From positions 1 through 47,102 of the forward strand of contig JAUNKF010000028.1 of the NCBI GenBank assembly GCA_030532895.1: a stretch of 47,102 bases of DNA, given 5' to 3'. Position 1 is the stretch's first letter, and every line of letters begins with the position of its first letter. Position numbers and translations under genes: made by a program. The notes beneath the pieces are model-generated. The model was given only the letters and a program-made list of their open reading frames with translations. It was not told where the DNA came from and did not search any database. This stretch comes from Lautropia sp. (GTDB taxonomy: Bacteria > Pseudomonadota > Gammaproteobacteria > Burkholderiales > Burkholderiaceae_E). Positions 5,467-47,102 of this stretch are shown here, piece by piece.

Positions 5467-6497
5467 GTCCGGAACTGCTCGCCCCGCTTGAATTCTATTT
5501 CATGCAGCATGCGCTGCTGATTGCCGTGCTGGTGGCCATCCCCACCGCGCTGCTCTCCTGCTTTCTGGTGATGAAGGGTTGGGCACTGCTGGGCGATGCG
5601 ATCTCGCATGCCGTCTTCCCTGGCGTGGTGCTGGCCCACATGGTGGGGTTGCCACTGCCCGTGGGTGCCTTCGTGGCGGGCATGAGCTGCGCGCTCCTGA
5701 GCGGCTACGTGCACGACAACAGCCGGATCAAGCAGGACACGGTCATGGGTATCGTCTTCTCCAGCATGTTCGCGCTGGGGCTGCTGCTGCATGCCGTCTC
5801 GTCGGCCGACATGCATCTGGATCAGATCCTCTTTGGCGACGTGCTCGGCGTTCAGCCCGAAGACCTGATCGAAACCGGCAGCATCGCACTTCTGATCTCG
5901 CTAGGCATGCTGCTCAAGTGGCGGGATCTGCTCTTGAACATCTTCGACCCCATTCAGGCCCGCACCTCGGGGTTGCCCGTGCAGTGGCTGCACTACGGCT
6001 TGCTGGCCGCCGTCTCACTTGCCGTGGTGGGCGCACTGAAATCCGTCGGCATCGTGCTGACGATCGCATTGCTGATCGCCCCCGGCGCCATCGCACTGCT
6101 CCTGACCCGCACCTTTGGGCAAATGCTGTGGGTGGCGGTGCTGGCCACCGTGCTGGCCTCGGTGGGCGGCATCTATCTGAGCTTCTTTCTCGACAGCGCC
6201 CCGGCCCCCACCATCGTGGTGCTGCTGACGCTGTTTTTCCTGCTGGCGCTGCTGGTCGACGGCTGGAAGACCCGACGCCTGCGCCGGGCACAAGCATTTG
6301 CCCCTTCGTCTTCCTTTGGTCAAGCCTATGCCGCTTCGGCCCATCCAGGCAGTTCGGCCCCTTCCGCGAGTTCGACCGGTTCTACCGGATCGAACCGCTC
6401 GACCGCGGCGATCACGTCAGCCACCTCAGCCCCCAAGCTTGACCCCAAGGTTCTGCCAGACATGGTGCCCCATACCACTCCAGGAGAGCCGCGATGA
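5463..6497 (+). CDS. sitD: Mn/Fe ABC transporter permease, second subunit (SitD/YfeD type)
   Basis: This is the second ABC-3 permease, expected to pair with SitC to form the membrane channel. It starts at an ATG overlapping the previous stop and has 344 residues. Landmarks are LLGDAISHAVFPGVVLAHMV, SRIKQDTVMGIVFSSMFALG, DLLLNIFDPIQARTSGL, SVGIVLTIALLIAPGAIALL and YLSFFLDSAPAPTIVVL. After the last membrane segment (near residue 268) come about 75 residues rich in Ser, Ala, Thr and Gly with no known domain. The frame is open upstream of 5463, but that sequence is out-of-frame sitC. It overlaps the HAD gene by ATGA. Confidence 0.92.
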   Translation: MSPELLAPLEFYFMQHALLIAVLVAIPTALLSCFLVMKGWALLGDAISHAVFPGVVLAHMVGLPLPVGAFVAGMSCALLSGYVHDNSRIKQDTVMGIVFSSMFALGLLLHAVSSADMHLDQILFGDVLGVQPEDLIETGSIALLISLGMLLKWRDLLLNIFDPIQARTSGLPVQWLHYGLLAAVSLAVVGALKSVGIVLTIALLIAPGAIALLLTRTFGQMLWVAVLATVLASVGGIYLSFFLDSAPAPTIVVLLTLFFLLALLVDGWKTRRLRRAQAFAPSSSFGQAYAASAHPGSSAPSASSTGSTGSNRSTAAITSATSAPKLDPKVLPDMVPHTTPGEPR

Positions 6498-38905: not shown

Positions 38906-39002
38906 CACGGCGTAACCACGCAACGGGGGTTGGCCGCTGAAGGGGCACTATGGTTCCCCCTTCATGGCGCCCCCTTCCCTTGGGACACATCCTCCCCTGA
39001 AG

Positions 39003-39028
39003 ACCGGGCCATGTGCCCGGTTTTTTTT
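39003..39028 (+). terminator. Rho-independent terminator after glnS
   Basis: ACCGGGC (39003-39009) pairs with GCCCGGT (39015-39021) around a five-base loop and is followed by eight T residues. This is a textbook terminator for the FKBP-glnS transcript. Confidence 0.9.
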
Positions 39029-39104: not shown

Positions 39105-39133
39105 TTGCCAATGATAATGATTAGTAATATGAT
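39105..39133 (+). promoter_or_regulatory. Sigma-70 promoter with Fur box between -35 and -10
   Basis: TTGCCA (39105-39110) and TATGAT (39128-39133) are spaced by 17 bp. A Fur-box match, GATAATGATTAGTAATATG (39113-39131; 14 of 19 with nine consecutive matches), fills the spacer. Fe-Fur binding would occlude the promoter. This is the best-defined promoter in the window and must drive the DUF2325 gene, with a leader of about 260 nt. Confidence 0.88.
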
Positions 39134-39201
39134 GGGACTCTGCCTGTTACGACCGATTGCAGGCAGCGTATCAGACTGAGCGCTGAAAGTCTCAACAAGC
39201 C

Positions 39202-39243
39202 CAAGCCTGAGGGTGTTTCATCTCCTCACCCTTCAGGCTTGGC
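39202..39243 (+). promoter_or_regulatory. Stable hairpin in the DUF2325 leader
   Basis: CCAAGCCTGAGGGTG (39202-39216) pairs with CACCCTTCAGGCTTGG (39228-39243), 15 base pairs with one bulge and an 11-nt loop. No T run follows, so it is not a standard terminator. It lies in the mRNA between the Fur-type promoter and the gene start. Confidence 0.75.
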
Positions 39244-39398
39244 ACCCATCGCCAGCGCATGGGCACAAGCGGCGCAAGCCTACTTGTTCCTGCCGCATAT
39301 CCCAGCAGTCCGATACCCGTTTCATGGCAAATGCCACCGGTGTTTGCCGGCCCGCCATTCACGATCAGTCGTTCATCGACACCAACCAGGGGACACCC

Positions 39399-40814
39399 AT
39401 GCAAGACCGCGAGCTGTATCTGAACGAGCGGCCCACGCTGGCCATCCTGAGAAACCCGCCTGCCATCGATCTGGGCAACTTCGAGCCGACCATGCGCGAG
39501 CCGGTGAAACTGCCCACCCCCAGCAGCTCGCGCCGCCGCAAGCTGTGGGATTTGGCTGCGCACTGCCACTGTCCGATCATCGGGCTGTGCCTGTCGATGG
39601 GCACACTGCGCAAACTGGCCACCCGTGCGCTGAACGAAACACTGCCTGAAGACGACTACGAGCTGCACGTCAACGCCGTCAATGAATCGCGCCGGCGCGG
39701 CCCCCTGGCCGAAGTGCTGCAAAAGGAGCTGGATCAGCGTTTTGCCATGCCGATCCGCAAGCTCGGCAGCATCAAGAACCGGGACGACCTCTATCAAGCC
39801 TGGCGAGGCTTCATCGACCGGGGCGAGATGCCGGCGGGCCTCTGGGCCTGCATGACGCACCCCCGCTGTGACCCCGGCATGCTGGAGCAGATTTATCGTG
39901 AAGTGCACATGCTGCAGCACCAGGCCAGCGCCGCCTCGCGTGACAAGGATGGACGCTATCAGGCATTGGCCGAAGAACATGCCCGCTGCCAGCAGGATCT
40001 GGACAAATCCCGCCAGCGTTACCAGCAGCTGCAAACCGAGAAGGCCACCGAAGTCGAGAGCCTCAACGCCGACATCCTGCGCCTGCGCAACGACAACGCT
40101 GCCAAAGACAACACGATCAAGCAGTTGCAGGAAGAGCTGGTCAGCCTGCGCCAACAGGCCGAAGACCTCGACAGCCGCATCGAACTGGCCGAACAGGTAC
40201 GCTGGCTGAGCGAGCGCAACCAGGAGCTGATGCAGCGCATCGTGGACATGCGCCACAAGGTCAATGCCCCCACGCTGGAGGGCAAAGGCGCGTCGGACAA
40301 CGGCACATCCAGCGCGAAGAGTGCCCCCAGCTCGGGCACGGGTGAAACGCCCGCCCCCGCGGAGGCCCAACCCTCGGCATCACCCACCGCCAGGAACAAC
40401 AGCTGCACCCACGCTGAAGCCGGCGGCTGCACGGCCGACGGTACCAGCAAGCCCTGCCCTGCCGACAACCTCGATTCCCGCGCCGTGCTCTGCGTGGGCG
40501 GACGCCACCATGCCATCTCGGTGTATCGGCGCATCGTCGAAAAACGCGGCGGCCGCTTCATCCACCACGATGGCGGGCGCGAAGACAGCGTGCATCGGCT
40601 CGACACCAATCTGGCCGCTGCCGATCTCGTCATCTGCCAGGCCGGCTGCATCAGCCACAGCGCCTACTGGCTGGTGAAGGATCACTGCAAGCGCACCGGC
40701 AAGCGCTGCGTTTACGTCGACAAGCCCAGCGCCAGCGCCTTCGAGCGCGGCCTCGTCCAAGGCGTGCAGGACAACGTGCGCTTTGAACCCATCCCCGACA
40801 CCACGGAGGCTTGA
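39399..40814 (+). CDS. DUF2325 coiled-coil protein under Fur-type control
   Basis: This is a 471-residue cytoplasmic protein of unknown function. The amino-terminal domain has LWDLAAHCHCPIIGLCLSMG with His and Cys residues that could bind metal. A central coiled coil runs from about 165 to 290 (for example KATEVESLNADILRLRND). A low-complexity linker (about 295-345) is followed by the C-terminal DUF2325 domain, with AVLCVGGRHHAISVYRRIVE, FIHHDGGREDS and ADLVICQAGCISHSAYWLVK. The start at 39399 follows an AGGGG site. The strong Fur promoter suggests induction under iron limitation. The stop is 3 bp from a microprotein start. Metal- or redox-linked regulation is inference; the family has no assigned function known to me. 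Confidence 0.85.
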   Translation: MQDRELYLNERPTLAILRNPPAIDLGNFEPTMREPVKLPTPSSSRRRKLWDLAAHCHCPIIGLCLSMGTLRKLATRALNETLPEDDYELHVNAVNESRRRGPLAEVLQKELDQRFAMPIRKLGSIKNRDDLYQAWRGFIDRGEMPAGLWACMTHPRCDPGMLEQIYREVHMLQHQASAASRDKDGRYQALAEEHARCQQDLDKSRQRYQQLQTEKATEVESLNADILRLRNDNAAKDNTIKQLQEELVSLRQQAEDLDSRIELAEQVRWLSERNQELMQRIVDMRHKVNAPTLEGKGASDNGTSSAKSAPSSGTGETPAPAEAQPSASPTARNNSCTHAEAGGCTADGTSKPCPADNLDSRAVLCVGGRHHAISVYRRIVEKRGGRFIHHDGGREDSVHRLDTNLAAADLVICQAGCISHSAYWLVKDHCKRTGKRCVYVDKPSASAFERGLVQGVQDNVRFEPIPDTTEA

Positions 40815-40817
40815 GCC

Positions 40818-40913
40818 ATGCGCCGCACCAACCCCACCCGCAACCGCCTGGAACTGATCGCCTTCGGCCTCTTGGTACTGGCCATTTGGGTGTTGGTGCC
40901 GGTGCATTCGTGA
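40818..40913 (+). CDS. 31-residue single-pass membrane microprotein
   Basis: This frame encodes MRRTNPTRNRLELIAFGLLV followed by LAIWVLVPVHS. A basic amino terminus is followed by one hydrophobic helix of about 19 residues, giving a predicted cytoplasm-in orientation. It begins 3 bp after the DUF2325 stop codon, with GGAGG (40805-40809) as its ribosome site inside the end of that gene, so translation is likely coupled. It is too short for most gene finders. Its function is unknown; small proteins of this kind often bind a membrane partner. Confidence 0.65.
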   Translation: MRRTNPTRNRLELIAFGLLVLAIWVLVPVHS

Positions 40914-41039: not shown

Positions 41040-41339
41040 ATGTCCATCGCTCAGAAACAGGCTGTTCACCATTATCGGCAACGCCTTGTCCAACAAGGCT
41101 TGAAACGGTTTGAGGTGATCGGCCGAGACGGGGATCAGACCCTGATTCGCCTACTGGCACGGAAACTGGCCGAAGACGGCCCCGAATCCCACCAGATACG
41201 CCACATCATCAAGCAGAATCTTGGGCAGCCTCCCAGCACCAAAGGCAATATCCTCGCCGCACTGCGGGCCTCACCAATGGTCGGCGCAGAGCTGGATCTT
41301 GACCGGCCCATCGTGGAAGCCCGAAAAGTCGAGCTATGA
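41040..41339 (+). CDS. VapB-like antitoxin
   Basis: This is a 99-residue protein, presumed DNA-binding antitoxin of the downstream PIN toxin. QAVHHYRQRLVQQGLKRFEV suggests a ribbon-helix-helix-like amino end. The C-terminal part (ILAALRASPMVGAELDLDRP) is the likely toxin-binding tail. Its stop overlaps the toxin start (ATGA at 41336-41339). Strong ribosome site and palindromic operator upstream. The family is not certain from sequence alone; gene position is the main evidence. Confidence 0.8.
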   Translation: MSIAQKQAVHHYRQRLVQQGLKRFEVIGRDGDQTLIRLLARKLAEDGPESHQIRHIIKQNLGQPPSTKGNILAALRASPMVGAELDLDRPIVEARKVEL

Positions 41340-41800
41340 TGCGTTATCTGCTCGACACAAACATCGTCAGCGAAGTCACCAAACCTCGCCCCTCTTCCCT
41401 ATTACTCCATTGGCTTGGGCAACAAGAAGACGATTCACTCTTCATTAGCACACTGACACTAGGAGAAATCCACAAAGGCATTCTGGAAATGCCAGTAGGC
41501 CGCCGACAGAAAGAGCTGCATGAGTGGTTCAACAGTAAACAAGGCCCACCCGCCCTGTTTTCCGGCCGTATTCTGAGCCTTGATGAACCCGCTGCACTAT
41601 GTTGGGCGCGCCTGATGGCGGAGGGGCGCCTCCAAGGCCGCCCCCGAAGCCCGTTGGACATGATGATCGCCGCCATCGCCATACATCACAACTGTCAGAT
41701 AGTCACAGCCAACGAGAAGGATTTTGCAGGACTGTCCATCCTGAATCCGCTACGTACTGATAGGCCAACAGCCTCTGACAACAGAGGAACCTCCGGTTGA
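41336..41800 (+). CDS. VapC-type PIN-domain toxin
   Basis: This is a Mg/Mn-dependent ribonuclease that cleaves tRNA or rRNA when free of antitoxin. It has 154 residues. The acidic residues of the PIN site are visible: YLLDTNIVSEV (first Asp), TLGEIHKGI (Glu), RSPLDMMIAAIA (Asp) and IVTANEKDF (final Asp). It starts within the antitoxin stop (ATGA). It is lower in GC than the core genes, as is usual for accessory loci. The last 20 residues exceed the usual family end. Confidence 0.92.
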   Translation: MMRYLLDTNIVSEVTKPRPSSLLLHWLGQQEDDSLFISTLTLGEIHKGILEMPVGRRQKELHEWFNSKQGPPALFSGRILSLDEPAALCWARLMAEGRLQGRPRSPLDMMIAAIAIHHNCQIVTANEKDFAGLSILNPLRTDRPTASDNRGTSG

Positions 41801-41842
41801 CATCTTGTGATGCTTTGTCATCAACGCGAGGAAACTCAAGCC

Positions 41843-42178
41843 ATGAAGATCGACACTGAAATCCGTCATGTGACCAAAGCAGGCGCCAATCTCTTCCTGG
41901 AGCTAGGGTTTCCGCCGGAAGAAGCTGAGCGACTCCACCGGGCATCACAACAGCAGATCAATGACACCAAGCAGCTCAAAGAACAGCTTATGGCCGAGCT
42001 GGCGGCGTGGATCGAACAGCACCACTTGAAGCAAGCCGAAGCTGCGGAAATTCTGATGGTATCCCGCCCGCGCGTCTCGGACGTGGTCAACAAGAAAGCC
42101 GCCAAGTTCACGATTGATACGCTGGTTGAAATGTTAAGTCGCATCGGCAAGCCGGTTCGCTTGGCGGTTGGCCAATAA
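41843..42178 (+). CDS. Orphan HigA/XRE-type regulator
   Basis: This 111-residue protein has a helix-turn-helix LKQAEAAEILMVSRPRVSDV and the neighbouring LVEMLSRIGKPVRLAV typical of HigA-type antitoxins. The start at 41843 has a GAGG site. Its usual partner, a RelE/HigB-type toxin, is missing; upstream is only the PIN toxin 43 bp away. It could be a lone antitoxin, a third component of the VapBC unit, or a regulator of the convergent restriction genes 4 bp away. Confidence 0.88.
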   Translation: MKIDTEIRHVTKAGANLFLELGFPPEEAERLHRASQQQINDTKQLKEQLMAELAAWIEQHHLKQAEAAEILMVSRPRVSDVVNKKAAKFTIDTLVEMLSRIGKPVRLAVGQ

Positions 42179-42182
42179 AAAC

Positions 42183-45173
42183 TCAGCCAGAAACTGGATC
42201 TACCAACTCGCTCAGTTTGGACACATCCTTGAATTGAACGCCGCGGGCCAGCGCAAAATGCCGGCGACCGCATTCGATCTTCAGGTTTTCGTCAGGGCGC
42301 CGCATGGCCGCTACCGTGCTGCCTTTGGTTTCTGCCACGAAGTACACGCGGGGGATTTCATCGCCCTGCCCGAAGACAACCGCCCAATCCGGGTTGTAGG
42401 TGCCCAGCGGCGTGTTGATCTTGAAGCGGGACGGCAGTTTGAAAAAGAAACGAACCCGCTCATCAAGCGCGCAGTCTCGGGCAAACTGGCTTTCGACCTC
42501 ACTGTCGCTCAGCACGCAGGCGAAGGCGGCGCTGGAAACAGGGTGGATCGGTTCAGCTTCAAGTAGCGTTTTATCCAGTTTGACCACCTGCTGCTGATCC
42601 GCGCGCGGGTAGACGCTGCTCAGGTAGGCTTCCTGTGTCTCGTCGAAGAGCGTCATCTCGTAGCGTGAGCCGTTGATCTCGTGGTATTCGATGCCCTCCA
42701 CCATCAGGGTTTGCAGGCAGCGCTTCATCACGGCAACGGCCATATCCAGAAAAGCTTGGGGGTTGATCAGCAATTCGTCCAAGCGGTTGGACTTGTCCAA
42801 AATGGCAAAGATCGTGCTGCGGGTCAGGTGCACCCGGTTCTGGATATAGGCATAGACATCTGGCACCATGCCGCCCTGATGCCGGGCCACGGTTGAAGCA
42901 ATGGCGTTGGCCTGCCCGTGAATGCCGTCGGCCTGCATGTACAAGCGGGCCTTGGCCGAGCGGATTTTGGCGGGCTGCACCTTCGGATACTGGTTCGTGT
43001 CCTTCAGCGCCTTCACGCAGGTCTCGATCAGCGTCGGGGTATCAAGCCGCACGCTGTAGCGGGTTCGGTAATTGATTTTCTGCCAAATCTCCCTGAACAG
43101 CGCTTCATCCTTTTCGCTGAGTTGTCGCCGACGGATGCGGGCCTTGGCACGGGCATCTTTCACCCGGTTGTTGAAGCTCACGCCGGTTTCTTCTTCGATC
43201 TCCTCCTGCAAGCTGCGCGCAAAGCGCTCATAGCTTTCATTGGGTACCACCGTCAGCACGTTGATGCGCTTGTTGGCGTCTTGCACCCGCTCGCCTTGCT
43301 GATTCACGCATAGCCGCAGACCCCGGCCGATTTCCTGCCGTTTTTTCACGTCGCTTCGGGTTTCATTCAGCGTGCAAATCTGGAAAACATTGGGATTGTC
43401 CCAGCCCTCACGCAACGCGCTGTGGCTGAAGATGAACTGCAACGGCTCGGCAAAGCTCAGCAGCCGCTCCTTGTCCTTCATGATCAGCGCATAGGTGTCT
43501 TCATCCTTGGCGACCGTGCCCTTGGTGTCCACCCATTCCACCCGTGCCTCGCTGCCTTTGCCCTTCTTGTCTCCCGAGAAGTAGCCGCCATGCACAGCAG
43601 ACGCCTCGTGCGGGATCAGCCCCCGGTAGTCTTGTCTGGCGGCATATTTGTTGAAGGCTTCTTCAAACCATCGGGCAAACTTGCCGGGCACCGGTTTGCC
43701 ATCCTCATCATAGCCCCGATAGTTGGCAACCCGGTCGATGAAAAACAGGCTCAGCACCTTGATGCCCAGCGGCTGAAGCCGCTTGAGCTTTTCAAAATGG
43801 CTTGCCACCGTGCGCTCGATCTGGAATCGCATCACATCATCGGCCAAGGCATCCTGCTGCTCGTTGAGCCGCACGATGCGGCCGCCTGAAAACTCGATGT
43901 AATCCTCGCCAATCGAGTTCAGCGTGTAGTTGTTGGCGTAGACATCCCGTTTGCCGGATTTGGCCCAGACATCATCACCCAGCTTCAGGCGAACCTCTTT
44001 ACGATCCGGTTTCCTGCTCGTCTTGTCCAACGCATCGATCGCCACCTTGGCCGTGATGCCTCGCGGCTTGGCCTCGATCGCCAGCAGCTCGATAAACGCC
44101 TGGTTGTGGTCTTCATCCCCCACCACCCCATCGACTTCGATCTGCTTGACCAACCCCAGGTCGTAAGCCCGCACGGGATCGAGCTTGTACAGCAGGTTGT
44201 AGGCGTGCTTGTGCGTGGCGGAATAACGCAGCGTGCAGAGCGGGTTCAGCTTGGCGATGGCCTCACGCCGTACTGGCGTCTCCATGTTCTGCGGCTCATC
44301 GAGAATCACGATCGGGTGGGTGGCCTGGATGTACTCGATCGGCTTCGTGCCGCGTTCGCCCTTCTGCCTGATCCGGTTGCTGTCCTTCGTGAAACTGTCG
44401 ATATTGATCACCAGCACACTCAGCGCATCACTCCGGGCAAAGTTCTGCAACTCGTTCAGGCGACTGCTGTCGTAGAGCACCGGCACGAACGGTACCCGGT
44501 CGTAATCCGCGGCAAAATGCGCCTGGGTGATGGCGATATTCTTCATCGTGCCTTCACGAATCGCCACGCTCGGCACCACCACCACAAACTTCTTGAAGCC
44601 GTACTGCTTGTGCAGCTCGTACATCGTCTTGATGAAAGTATAGGTCTTGCCCGTGCCGGTTTCCATCTCGATGCTGAGATTGAGTGTGCAGGCGGGCACC
44701 TCTTCCACCGACTCGGCACGCGCCGAACGTTTGGCGCGCCCCCTTCGTCCCTTGGCTCCCTGCGCCACACGGCGACCATCGCTGGCATCGTGGCCCGACA
44801 ACTGGGCCTGATATCCTTGATCAGCCTCACCCGCGGCCATCTCCGCATCGTCTTCGGCCCTTGGCGCCATCATCGGCACGAGTGTTTCCGAAGGCGTAAG
44901 TGTGTTGACCGCTTGAACCTTCCGAACATTCTCCAGCAACTGCTCGTCCGAAATCACCAGCCGGTTGCCGATGCTGCCCTCTGCCGCATACGCCACGCCA
45001 GCAGATTCAGATGTCAGCACAAAGCTGGCACTCGCCATCGGCTGCCCATCGAACACATCCACCACCGCCTTCACCGCCTGTGCTTGATAGGCTTGGTGGC
45101 TGAACTTCAACTGCATTGCCGGTTGCTGCTTTGAAGCGGTTTGAGTCGTCGTCGCTACCTCCTGATTCACCAT
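42183..45173 (-). CDS. Type III restriction enzyme, Res subunit
   Basis: This ATP-dependent DNA translocase and nuclease acts with Mod. It has 996 residues. An SF2 helicase carries Walker A EMETGTGKTYTF (about 169-180), DEAD-type ILDEPQNME, TLRYSATHKHAYN, SHSALREGWDNPNVFQICTL and RQEIGRGLRLCVN. A C-terminal PD-(D/E)xK nuclease carries NPDWAVVFGQGD and YFVAETKGS. A charged, low-complexity insert of about 60 residues (about 98-160) lies just before Walker A. It starts 7 bp after mod on the same strand and ends 4 bp from the convergent HigA-like gene. It appears intact. Confidence 0.95.
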   Translation of the reverse strand: MVNQEVATTTQTASKQQPAMQLKFSHQAYQAQAVKAVVDVFDGQPMASASFVLTSESAGVAYAAEGSIGNRLVISDEQLLENVRKVQAVNTLTPSETLVPMMAPRAEDDAEMAAGEADQGYQAQLSGHDASDGRRVAQGAKGRRGRAKRSARAESVEEVPACTLNLSIEMETGTGKTYTFIKTMYELHKQYGFKKFVVVVPSVAIREGTMKNIAITQAHFAADYDRVPFVPVLYDSSRLNELQNFARSDALSVLVINIDSFTKDSNRIRQKGERGTKPIEYIQATHPIVILDEPQNMETPVRREAIAKLNPLCTLRYSATHKHAYNLLYKLDPVRAYDLGLVKQIEVDGVVGDEDHNQAFIELLAIEAKPRGITAKVAIDALDKTSRKPDRKEVRLKLGDDVWAKSGKRDVYANNYTLNSIGEDYIEFSGGRIVRLNEQQDALADDVMRFQIERTVASHFEKLKRLQPLGIKVLSLFFIDRVANYRGYDEDGKPVPGKFARWFEEAFNKYAARQDYRGLIPHEASAVHGGYFSGDKKGKGSEARVEWVDTKGTVAKDEDTYALIMKDKERLLSFAEPLQFIFSHSALREGWDNPNVFQICTLNETRSDVKKRQEIGRGLRLCVNQQGERVQDANKRINVLTVVPNESYERFARSLQEEIEEETGVSFNNRVKDARAKARIRRRQLSEKDEALFREIWQKINYRTRYSVRLDTPTLIETCVKALKDTNQYPKVQPAKIRSAKARLYMQADGIHGQANAIASTVARHQGGMVPDVYAYIQNRVHLTRSTIFAILDKSNRLDELLINPQAFLDMAVAVMKRCLQTLMVEGIEYHEINGSRYEMTLFDETQEAYLSSVYPRADQQQVVKLDKTLLEAEPIHPVSSAAFACVLSDSEVESQFARDCALDERVRFFFKLPSRFKINTPLGTYNPDWAVVFGQGDEIPRVYFVAETKGSTVAAMRRPDENLKIECGRRHFALARGVQFKDVSKLSELVDPVSG

Positions 45174-45180
45174 TGCCCCC

Positions 45181-47102
45181 TCAAACCACCGTCAGGTTGA
45201 TGTCCAGAGCGGCCAGCTCCAATTGCAGATTGGCCAACGCCTCATCGGCCTTTTCCCCCTGAAAGGCCGAACTCAGCAGAATCACCTGCGCCGGTTTTTG
45301 CTTGACGATGGCCTCTTTCAGCTCAGGCTTGTATGGCTCAAAGCACAGCCACAAATCCCGATCATCCGGCAGCAGCACCCGATGCACCTTCACCCCGCCC
45401 TGCGTTATCGGCTTGCTGATCGCATCCACGCCCAACGCGCCCAGGCCCAGCTTCAGCAGCAGCTCGGTCAGCATCGCTTGCTCCGTCTCGGCATCCGCCA
45501 GCGTCACCCCCGGTTTCTCGGCCTTCAGGCTCAATTCCATTTGTGCCTTCACCGCCTCTACCGTTTTCACATCACTGCGCCACGCCTGAAAATTCGAGGA
45601 AGCCAACGTGAAGTGCGCGCACGCCAAGTCTTTAGTCTTGTCAGGGTGCTCGGCCTTCAGCTTCTCGATCACCTTGTCGATCCGCGCCCGTGTGATGTCG
45701 GCAATGGTGCGGTAGCCTGCCTTGTAGGCTTCTGACTTCTCCTCCAGCACTTCGGGCATCTGCACGCAGATGCACTGGCGGTTTCCGCCGTCTTCCAAAT
45801 TCAGCTCCATGACGGCTTGGGCTGTGGTGCCGGAGCCGGCGAAGAAGTCAAGAACCAACGAACTTTCGCCTAAATTTGAAAGTCGAGTTAAGCGTCTCAA
45901 TAACCGAACAGGTTTAGGGCCGTCAAAAACCCCTGCATCAAGAAGAGCTGTTAACTCCTTTGATCCTTCCTGACTATGACCAACATCTTTGTAGAACATT
46001 AAAGACTGAGGAGCCATACCCTCATATTTAAGCTCAGACAAAAATCTCTTGATGCTAGGAACACTATTTCCGTCCGAACCAAACCAAATCCTGTTATCAT
46101 TGAGTCTCTCAAAAAATGCTTTTTTTGAGAGACTCCAACAGCGCCCTGTTGGAGGCTCTACAAGCCGCCCTGAAGGGGTAGTTATCTCATAATCATTTTC
46201 CGGCGTATATGTCTTTACAGACATATCACTCGATTTCCAAACCCCCCTTGGATCATTATCTGGATTTGAATAACGATCATTTGCCTCCTTTGACCGATCA
46301 AGCCGACCTATAGAAAATCTACTTATATTTTTCGCATAAAAAACAACATAATCATGACTACTTGAAACATACTTGGCATCATTTTTTGGAGAGTAAGCTC
46401 TTTCCCATACAAGAATAGATATAAAATTTTCCCCACCAAACACCTCATCACAAAGCAGCTTCAAGTTCGCCGCTTCGTTGTCATCAATACTGATAAAAAT
46501 CACCCCATCCTCCCGCAACAGATTTCGGGCCAGGTACAGGCGCGGGTACATCATCGACAGCCAGTTGCTGTGGTAGTGCCCGCTTTCTTTGCTGTTCTTC
46601 TTCCACAGGCTCTGCTTGTTCAATAGGCCGGCTTCATTCTTTTCACCGGTGCGCTTCAGGTATTCGTCGAGCGACTCGGCGTAGTCGTCGGGGTAGACGA
46701 AACTGTCGTTACCGGTGTTGTACGGCGGGTCGATGTAGATCATCTTGACCTTGCCGTAGTAGCTTTTTTGCAGCACGCGCAGCACTTCGAGGTTTTCACC
46801 TTCGATCAGCATGTGCGGGGCACGTTCGGGGTTGTTGGCAGCGGGGCGCAGGATGTTGCTGCTGCTTTTCTGGATTTCTCGACGGGCGTCGCTTTTGCCG
46901 GCCCAGCTTAGCTCGTAGTGTTCGGGGCCGGTGAGATTTTCTTGGCCCAGCAACGCTTTGAGAGCGTCGATGTCGAGCTGGTTGTCCTTGATGAGGGCGG
47001 GTTCGATCTGGCCGAGGGTGGCCAGCAAGTCCTTCTGGCGTTGCGCCAGCGGATCGGGGCTGTAGCCTAATTCAGCACGAGATTCCGGCTGTTGGCTGTT
47101 GG
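45181..47102 (-). CDS. Type III DNA methyltransferase, Mod subunit (5' end beyond the window)
   Basis: This is a beta-class adenine-N6 methyltransferase that also gives the target specificity of the Type III system. Motif IV DPPYNTGNDSFVYPDDYAES lies at about 46670-46731, and motif I FFAGSGTTAQAVMEL at about 45800-45846. The 350-odd residues between them form the target-recognition domain. The frame is open to the window edge (reading SRAELGYSPDPLAQRQKDLL before the first internal TTG at 47028), so the true start lies beyond 47102. Base composition falls sharply in about 45850-46480, the recognition region, compared with both flanks. It is upstream of res. Confidence 0.95.
   Translation of the reverse strand, partial: NSQQPESRAELGYSPDPLAQRQKDLLATLGQIEPALIKDNQLDIDALKALLGQENLTGPEHYELSWAGKSDARREIQKSSSNILRPAANNPERAPHMLIEGENLEVLRVLQKSYYGKVKMIYIDPPYNTGNDSFVYPDDYAESLDEYLKRTGEKNEAGLLNKQSLWKKNSKESGHYHSNWLSMMYPRLYLARNLLREDGVIFISIDDNEAANLKLLCDEVFGGENFISILVWERAYSPKNDAKYVSSSHDYVVFYAKNISRFSIGRLDRSKEANDRYSNPDNDPRGVWKSSDMSVKTYTPENDYEITTPSGRLVEPPTGRCWSLSKKAFFERLNDNRIWFGSDGNSVPSIKRFLSELKYEGMAPQSLMFYKDVGHSQEGSKELTALLDAGVFDGPKPVRLLRRLTRLSNLGESSLVLDFFAGSGTTAQAVMELNLEDGGNRQCICVQMPEVLEEKSEAYKAGYRTIADITRARIDKVIEKLKAEHPDKTKDLACAHFTLASSNFQAWRSDVKTVEAVKAQMELSLKAEKPGVTLADAETEQAMLTELLLKLGLGALGVDAISKPITQGGVKVHRVLLPDDRDLWLCFEPYKPELKEAIVKQKPAQVILLSSAFQGEKADEALANLQLELAALDINLTVV
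45850..46480. other. AT-rich target-recognition segment of mod
   Basis: This stretch lies inside mod and is visibly much richer in A and T than the rest of the gene, with AT-rich codons such as AAA, TTT and ATA common. The frame stays open. It matches the recognition domain, a region known in Type III systems to be exchanged by recombination. Confidence 0.75.

Follow-up and report, generated by a model that had tools for sequence, protein, structure and literature searches.

Among described proteins with a DUF2325 domain, Cj1384 of Campylobacter jejuni is the closest to the one considered here. According to passages of three reports, it is a protein of 104 residues with 7 cysteines for which control by RacRS is also described (PMC9426514, PMC4491227, PMC3815106). 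Passages of two of them present cj1384c as repressed by iron and by Fur (PMC4491227, PMC3815106); in those of the third, the gene lies within the katA cluster, is placed under PerR as well, and rises 352-fold under violet-blue light, more than any other gene in that study (PMC9426514). No function is given for DUF2325 in the passages of PMC9426514, PMC6934571, and PMC6637203 that mention it, in keeping with an earlier sequence-only reading of the present DNA, by which the family had no assigned function. Here, we analyzed a unit at positions 39105 to 40913 of the window, by which we mean the whole 47,102-nucleotide (nt) stretch under study (Lautropia sp., assembly GCA_030532895.1, contig JAUNKF010000028.1, positions 1 to 47,102, forward strand), consisting of a promoter with a Fur-like box, a gene for a long DUF2325 protein, and a microprotein frame. 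The Lautropia protein resembles Cj1384, as portrayed in those passages, in its DUF2325 domain and in its putative iron/Fur control, whereas Cj1384 is too short at 104 residues to hold the N-terminal helical domain and coiled coil described below, is additionally reported under PerR and RacRS, and appears in the published passages with no mention of a microprotein. The source organism is an oral bacterium.

A Fur-like box in the promoter of the Lautropia DUF2325 gene

The promoter (39105 to 39133, + strand) is of the sigma-70 type, with TTGCCA at 39105 to 39110, a 17-bp spacer, and TATGAT at 39128 to 39133, matching the consensus at 10 of 12 positions. Sites of that quality number 2 in 3 kb versus a shuffle mean of 0.5, and a similar layout is present in the aligned Lautropia orthologues. 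Consensus scoring, genome searches, and orthologue alignment place a Fur-like box at 39108 to 39131 (+), across the spacer and the −10 element. Its 19-bp match, GATAATGATTAGTAATATG at 39113 to 39131, occupies the spacer, runs into the −10 element, and agrees with the Fur consensus used for scoring at 14 of 19 positions, a score equaled by 1 of 300 Markov sequences built from the same 700 bp. The box is present in all eight Lautropia orthologues, where it sits in a similar promoter layout; seven score at least 13/19 and one, L031, scores 12/19. Both the promoter and the Fur box in its spacer, as proposed by the sequence-only reading, were thus confirmed.

The exact pattern CNAATGANAATNATTNG occurs once in the 3.64-Mb genome, at the DUF2325 promoter. 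A search of the same genome with this pattern returned 20 rows versus 5 for a reversed control; the remaining 19 carry two mismatches, and one of these is the DUF2325 site read from the other strand. A looser Fur consensus gave a weak signal in the window's own genome (8 matches versus 3 in the reversed control) and 61 matches versus 5 across nine Lautropia genomes. Thirteen of the loci with such boxes were inspected, only loci with inspected neighbors being used, and gene names there were assigned by sequence reading, not by a family scan. At six of them, in six genomes, efeU-efeO lies behind the box (L176, L179, L180, L181, L182, and L186), and a TonB receptor lies by the box at four more (L178, L183, L185, and L184); at L184 the box at locus position 5924 does not front the receptor, and a second match at about 2276 does. 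No nameable iron gene was seen at the other three (L175, L177, and L187). Since the motif accompanies iron genes in Lautropia, the DUF2325 gene is very probably a member of the Fur regulon, in which case Fur would repress it.

Architecture of the long DUF2325 protein

The gene behind this promoter (39399 to 40814, +) encodes 471 residues arranged as an N-terminal helical domain, a coiled coil, a linker, and a DUF2325 domain. The last (40470 to 40754, +) is matched by PF10087 at residues 363 to 452 with an E value of 4e-24 and 85.1 bits versus a curated cutoff of 33.6, so that its proposed family membership is secure; NCBIfam returned for the DUF2325 proteins only weak matches below cutoff. The domain holds C365, C413, and C437, which are characteristic of the iron branch defined below, plus C417 and C430. 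A structure model predicts a long helix or coiled coil at residues 159 to 289 (39873 to 40265, +).

In the N-terminal helical domain (39528 to 39920, +), delimited by alignment of relatives, C58, H90, H154, H170, and H174 are invariant in 55 of 55 nonredundant relatives, as are W135, W149, and G62. These 55 were left from 64 sequences after an 85% identity filter and had been retrieved by a family-built profile, which biases the set toward conserved sites. The domain is unnamed: a Pfam scan of 26 members found no family in more than two of them (best E value, 0.0055), a structural search of the PDB with the domain gave no useful match, and a sequence search of the PDB gave matches limited to the coiled-coil region (best E value, 0.014). 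The pattern of conservation suggests that the Cys/His set may form a metal site.

Iron-associated and ModE-associated branches

Long forms in Rhodoferax, Rhizobacter, and Hylemonella share the whole architecture, with 35 to 43% identity in long segments; these and other long forms have Fur boxes in part and iron-uptake neighbors in part. Of 53 loci scanned, 36 passed a strict motif, 16 lacking it and 1 being a duplicate, and 18 of the 36 reached a Fur score of 13/19 within 700 bp, where the rest of the loci gave a chance expectation of 0.065 hits per 700 bp. Neighbors in the iron branch include Fur, TonB/ExbBD, FbpABC, HemP, and Bfr. We scanned the genes no more than two places away from the long-form gene at 26 of the 36 loci, 10 without the strict core motif being excluded; these 102 neighbors include 10 TonB receptors, 4 ExbB, 3 ExbD, 3 binding proteins, and 2 each of Fur, ferritin-like, AhpC-type, and TonB proteins.

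A fur gene shares the stretch with a long or short DUF2325 form at 10 of 67 loci (65 with the DUF2325 core). Five of the 10 are Lautropia loci in which a short DUF2325 paralogue lies directly upstream of fur; at L112 the short form is also just upstream, and at the other four the two genes are about 0.7 to 4 kb apart. The Lautropia arrangement, a short DUF2325-like gene (L002:970-1845) followed on the same strand by fur (L002:1970-2407), was seen at five of five loci (also L027 to L030), and at L112, which lies outside Lautropia, the distance to fur is about 100 bp or less.

More distant long forms adjoin modE, modA, Mop, and the molybdotransferase gene Glp, as seen in annotated records and with probes. 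In a 60-member tree of long forms, a branch with 98% support in the Shimodaira-Hasegawa-like approximate likelihood ratio test (SH-aLRT) splits 43 rows, including the window, from 17. The larger side comprises 23 rows with iron neighbors, 1 with molybdenum neighbors, and 19 with neither, and the smaller one 11 with molybdenum neighbors, 1 with both, and 5 with neither; such clustering of labels was reached in 0 of 200 shuffles. The tree was built by a quick method without bootstrap, the duplicate L091 was removed, and three Lautropia rows were entered as having neither label. A gene at any place in the fetched stretch was enough for a label, the iron label of L100, L102, and L105 is due to a ferritin-like gene alone, and L204 was relabeled as molybdenum, its FbpB hit being taken as a molybdate permease. 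When Fur boxes are added, the 43 iron-side rows comprise 23 with iron neighbors, 15 others with a Fur box of at least 13/19, 4 with neither, and 1 further row, L101; for L092, L098, and L103, random sequences attain the Fur score in 3 to 4 of 100.

Upstream sequences divide along the same line. A palindrome resembling the ModE consensus precedes 13 of 17 molybdenum-side genes versus 1 of the 40 iron-side genes (Lautropia excluded), and a Fur box of at least 13/19 precedes 3 of 17 versus 15 of 40. The 13 palindrome-bearing rows form exactly one clade (96% support), in which none has a Fur box of at least 13/19 and 11 of 13 loci have modE, Mop, ModA, or Glp neighbors; the other four rows of that side (L206, L212, L214, and L217) lie outside this ModE clade, and three of them carry Fur-like boxes. 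Outside the upstream windows, the palindrome was matched 24 times in 585 kb, 23 of these within the same molybdenum loci. The ModE-linked long forms (Caballeronia, Burkholderia, Methylorubrum, Rhizobium, Aureimonas, and others) have the same N-terminal Cys/His set, coiled coil, and DUF2325 domain as the Lautropia protein and differ from it in that the ModE-like palindrome replaces the Fur box and aromatic residues stand at positions 365, 413, and 437. A literature search found no work linking DUF2325 with ModE, although the search term also matches the word "mode." At L203, on a Shinella plasmid, a long DUF2325 gene with a ModE-type upstream palindrome lies a few kilobases from nrdH, nrdE, and nrdF.

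The five N-terminal Cys/His residues are present in all 65 rows examined, in both branches, whereas other positions separate them. Position 365 holds Cys in all 48 iron-branch rows and Tyr in all 13 of the ModE clade. At 437, 46 of the 48 have Cys and all 13 an aromatic residue; at 413, Cys stands in 47 of the 48, and in three deep rows with Fur boxes, and Phe in each of the 13. The positions of C365 and C437 are aromatic also in those three deep rows and so track the branch, not the box. P59, which with C58 makes a Cys-Pro dipeptide, a known haem motif, is found in 44 of 48 iron-branch rows versus 0 of 13. The DUF2325 domain has a predicted receiver/IIB-like fold, and its identity to receiver and phosphotransferase system (PTS) IIB domains is 7 to 18% among the matches listed. 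PTS IIB domains have their phospho-cysteine at the first strand and its loop; in the DUF2325 domain the first strand (362 to 366) holds C365 in the iron branch and Tyr at that position in the ModE clade. The hallmark of a receiver is absent: in CheY-like receivers the third strand ends in the phospho-acceptor Asp, and in the DUF2325 domain this strand (410 to 414, LVICQ in the model and the alignment) ends without Asp and carries C413.

L101 is the only iron-side gene with a ModE-like box, a strong palindrome, and it adjoins modE and a molybdopterin enzyme, which we take to be an oxidoreductase. Except at 417 (His) and 157 (Ile), it retains the inspected iron-branch residues; the switch may therefore be recent, and L101 is a possible case of a natural change of regulator.

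The N-terminal domain with its invariant Cys/His set, the iron neighborhood, and the ModE-box sister clade with aromatic replacements are new, and they suggest a common theme. The simplest account would be a metal-starvation protein controlled by Fur in the iron branch and by ModE in the sister clade. Linking the long form to Fur and ModE would take DUF2325, widespread and unexplained, out of its orphan status and make it a metal-starvation family that can be tested, starting from candidate ligands, residues that separate iron forms from molybdenum forms, and a single natural switch (L101). A single architecture under regulators of two chemically different metals, together with the long coiled coil and the receiver/IIB-like fold, would also suit a starvation effector, that is, an adaptor or regulator that lowers the use or promotes the turnover of metal-using proteins, with the metal site as its sensor and with Fur or ModE setting only the timing of its synthesis. 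We consider such a role unlikely. Lower still stands our estimate for a protein serving mainly peroxide or redox defense in starved cells, with its cysteines as redox groups. The setting of cj1384c in the katA cluster, its additional regulation by PerR, and its 352-fold induction by light, as given in passages of PMC9426514, would fit that role, as would the AhpC-type (2/102) and ferritin-like (2/102) neighbors; however, the commonest named neighbors are uptake genes, and the N-terminal Cys/His set persists in the ModE clade, where the three DUF2325 cysteine positions are aromatic.

A putative membrane microprotein conserved in Lautropia

Three base pairs past the DUF2325 stop codon, an ATG opens a frame of 31 residues (40818 to 40913, +) with a basic N-terminal end followed by a single hydrophobic stretch ending in IWVLVP. 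Its likely ribosome site, GGAGG at 40805 to 40809 (+), lies inside the end of the DUF2325 gene, as the sequence-only reading had noticed, and recurs near the gene end in all seven Lautropia orthologues with sequence at that point; the eighth, L033, ends before the microprotein position. In the same seven of seven species a frame of 31 to 35 residues is kept with the pattern R-x-R-x-E-x3-F-x2-L-x3-IW-x-LVP, starting between a 1-nt overlap with the stop codon and 3 nt beyond it, and four of the seven also offer an ATG that overlaps the stop codon by 4 nt (ATGA). This position fits coupled translation, which we infer for the pair.

The in-frame BLOSUM score is 3.08 versus a column-shuffled mean of 1.62 (standard deviation, 0.26), with 0 of 500 shuffles as high; codon variation is highest at position 3 and lowest at position 2, and the nonsynonymous rate (dN) is below the synonymous rate (dS) in 21 of 21 pairs. 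By these comparisons the frame is real and under protein-level selection, and the conservation in relatives on which its earlier proposal hinged was found within the genus. Although many type I toxins are likewise short and basic and then hydrophobic, this selection, the fixed position behind one gene in seven of seven species, and the single match in its own genome speak against a type I toxin-like peptide or a chance frame, either of which we regard as very improbable.

In a profile search of 200 genomes of the order, three had a match, all of them Lautropia, which makes the microprotein a genus-level addition, as far as searched, and no general partner of DUF2325. No similar frame follows the gene in long forms outside Lautropia; the near-identical Rhodoferax loci L048 and L050 have an unlike 25-residue TTG frame directly after the stop codon, and L049 has an unlike hydrophobic frame of 26 residues 200 nt downstream. 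Of the two features that the sequence-only reading proposed to look for in relatives, the box was seen at 18 of 36 long-form loci and the frame in Lautropia only. NCBIfam gave no match to the microprotein. A weak Pfam match to Coa3_cc (E value, 0.08; 13 bits versus 27) was not adopted.

A feature of the protein itself has the same distribution. Alignment of the Lautropia sequences and a structure model delimit an N-terminal extension at residues 1 to 40 (39399 to 39518, +) with the pattern MQDRELYL..RPTLAIL.NP...NFEPT.R.P, a mean identity of 71%, and low model confidence. It is kept in eight of eight Lautropia orthologues and is not conserved in the Rhodoferax, Rhizobacter, and Hylemonella type or in other long forms outside the genus, so that tail (8/8) and microprotein (7/7) co-occur in Lautropia. 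The microprotein could instead have a separate task, such as the regulation of an iron importer (EfeU, for example), with only the operon in common. Its restriction to Lautropia beside a widespread DUF2325 core is in favor of a separate function, and transporter regulators of similar small size are known; yet a start that lies, in seven of seven species, between an overlap with the stop codon and 3 nt past it points to matched amounts, and the Lautropia tail offers a partner site. On balance, a separate function appears possible and somewhat doubtful.

A candidate mechanism and points against it

We tentatively favor, with confidence somewhat short of even, an iron-starvation operon in which a metal-handling DUF2325 protein is anchored by the membrane microprotein. 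Iron-loaded Fur would occupy the promoter, and on a drop in iron a single message would yield two proteins by coupled translation. The cytoplasmic DUF2325 protein would handle metal: its N-terminal domain would hold iron or haem through C58, H90, H154, H170, and H174, its coiled coil would pair two chains, and its DUF2325 domain, with C365, C413, and C437, would take or pass on metal or report the metal state. The Lautropia microprotein is predicted to be a single-pass membrane peptide whose basic end, by the positive-inside rule, would face the cytoplasm. It would anchor its partner at the inner membrane, close to where iron comes in, through a grip on the tail at residues 1 to 40, which is probably disordered and is conserved only in Lautropia. 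The microprotein would give the iron operon a membrane peptide confined to this genus, in a position suited to coupled translation.

Several points weigh against this mechanism. Half of the long-form loci (18/36) are below 13/19 for a Fur box, and the counts of the 102 neighbors stand without a control gene set. The ModE clade has the same invariant Cys/His residues, which argues that the site is not iron specific and may be structural, holding zinc. Since the tail and the microprotein are found together in a single genus, shared descent would suffice without any contact between them, and since long forms outside Lautropia do without the microprotein, the core function cannot need it.

A broader proposal, which we hold to be possible and little more, is that long DUF2325 proteins are one metal-starvation family passed between regulators, Cys-rich under Fur and with aromatics at the positions of C365, C413, and C437 under ModE, and with a shared N-terminal metal site on a fold for which the PDB search gave no useful match. 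The iron form of Lautropia would then have acquired, through the coupled microprotein, a membrane partner that binds to a newly added tail and places the protein where iron enters.

The leader and the surroundings of the unit

The −10 element and the ATG of the DUF2325 gene are about 265 nt apart. The 259-nt leader (39140 to 39398, +) folds at −98.9 kcal/mol with a z score of −4.67, beating all 200 shuffles; leader lengths among the eight Lautropia orthologues range from about 34 to 432 nt, marking it as a structured but lineage-local feature. A genome search and comparison of the Lautropia leaders showed that its hairpin with a CUCCU loop (39201 to 39242, +) is a single copy in the genome and recurs only in L031, the nearest species, the other six leaders differing in length and sequence. 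All 16 base pairs of the window hairpin are maintained in L031, with one two-sided and two one-sided changes. The hairpin leader of the sequence-only reading is therefore structured in this species and has a counterpart in L031, and as a local feature it is no general part of the unit; the second control that had been suggested for it, for example, by a small RNA, is unsupported as a general trait, and a riboswitch or small-RNA target common to these leaders was rejected.

An Rfam scan gave no match in the window leader and, near the genes of six relatives, none except a SorX-like one that lies some 0.6 kb upstream of the L031 gene. Subthreshold matches to the SorX family were seen at 38975 to 39028 (+) of the window (30.5 bits) and at L031:4307-4377 (28.6 bits), the gathering threshold being 46.6. 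The match in the window sits at the glnS terminator, includes a CCUCC stretch, and is possibly a small RNA from the 3′ untranslated region.

The unit lies between glnS upstream and a toxin-antitoxin-like pair downstream. The latter, a 99-residue frame and a PIN-domain gene, is followed by a helix-turn-helix gene (41040 to 42178 in all), and the genes following the unit in other Lautropia loci look different. Farther on, at 42183 to 47100 on the − strand, are two long frames of 996 and 639 residues, which we take to be a type III restriction-modification-like pair.
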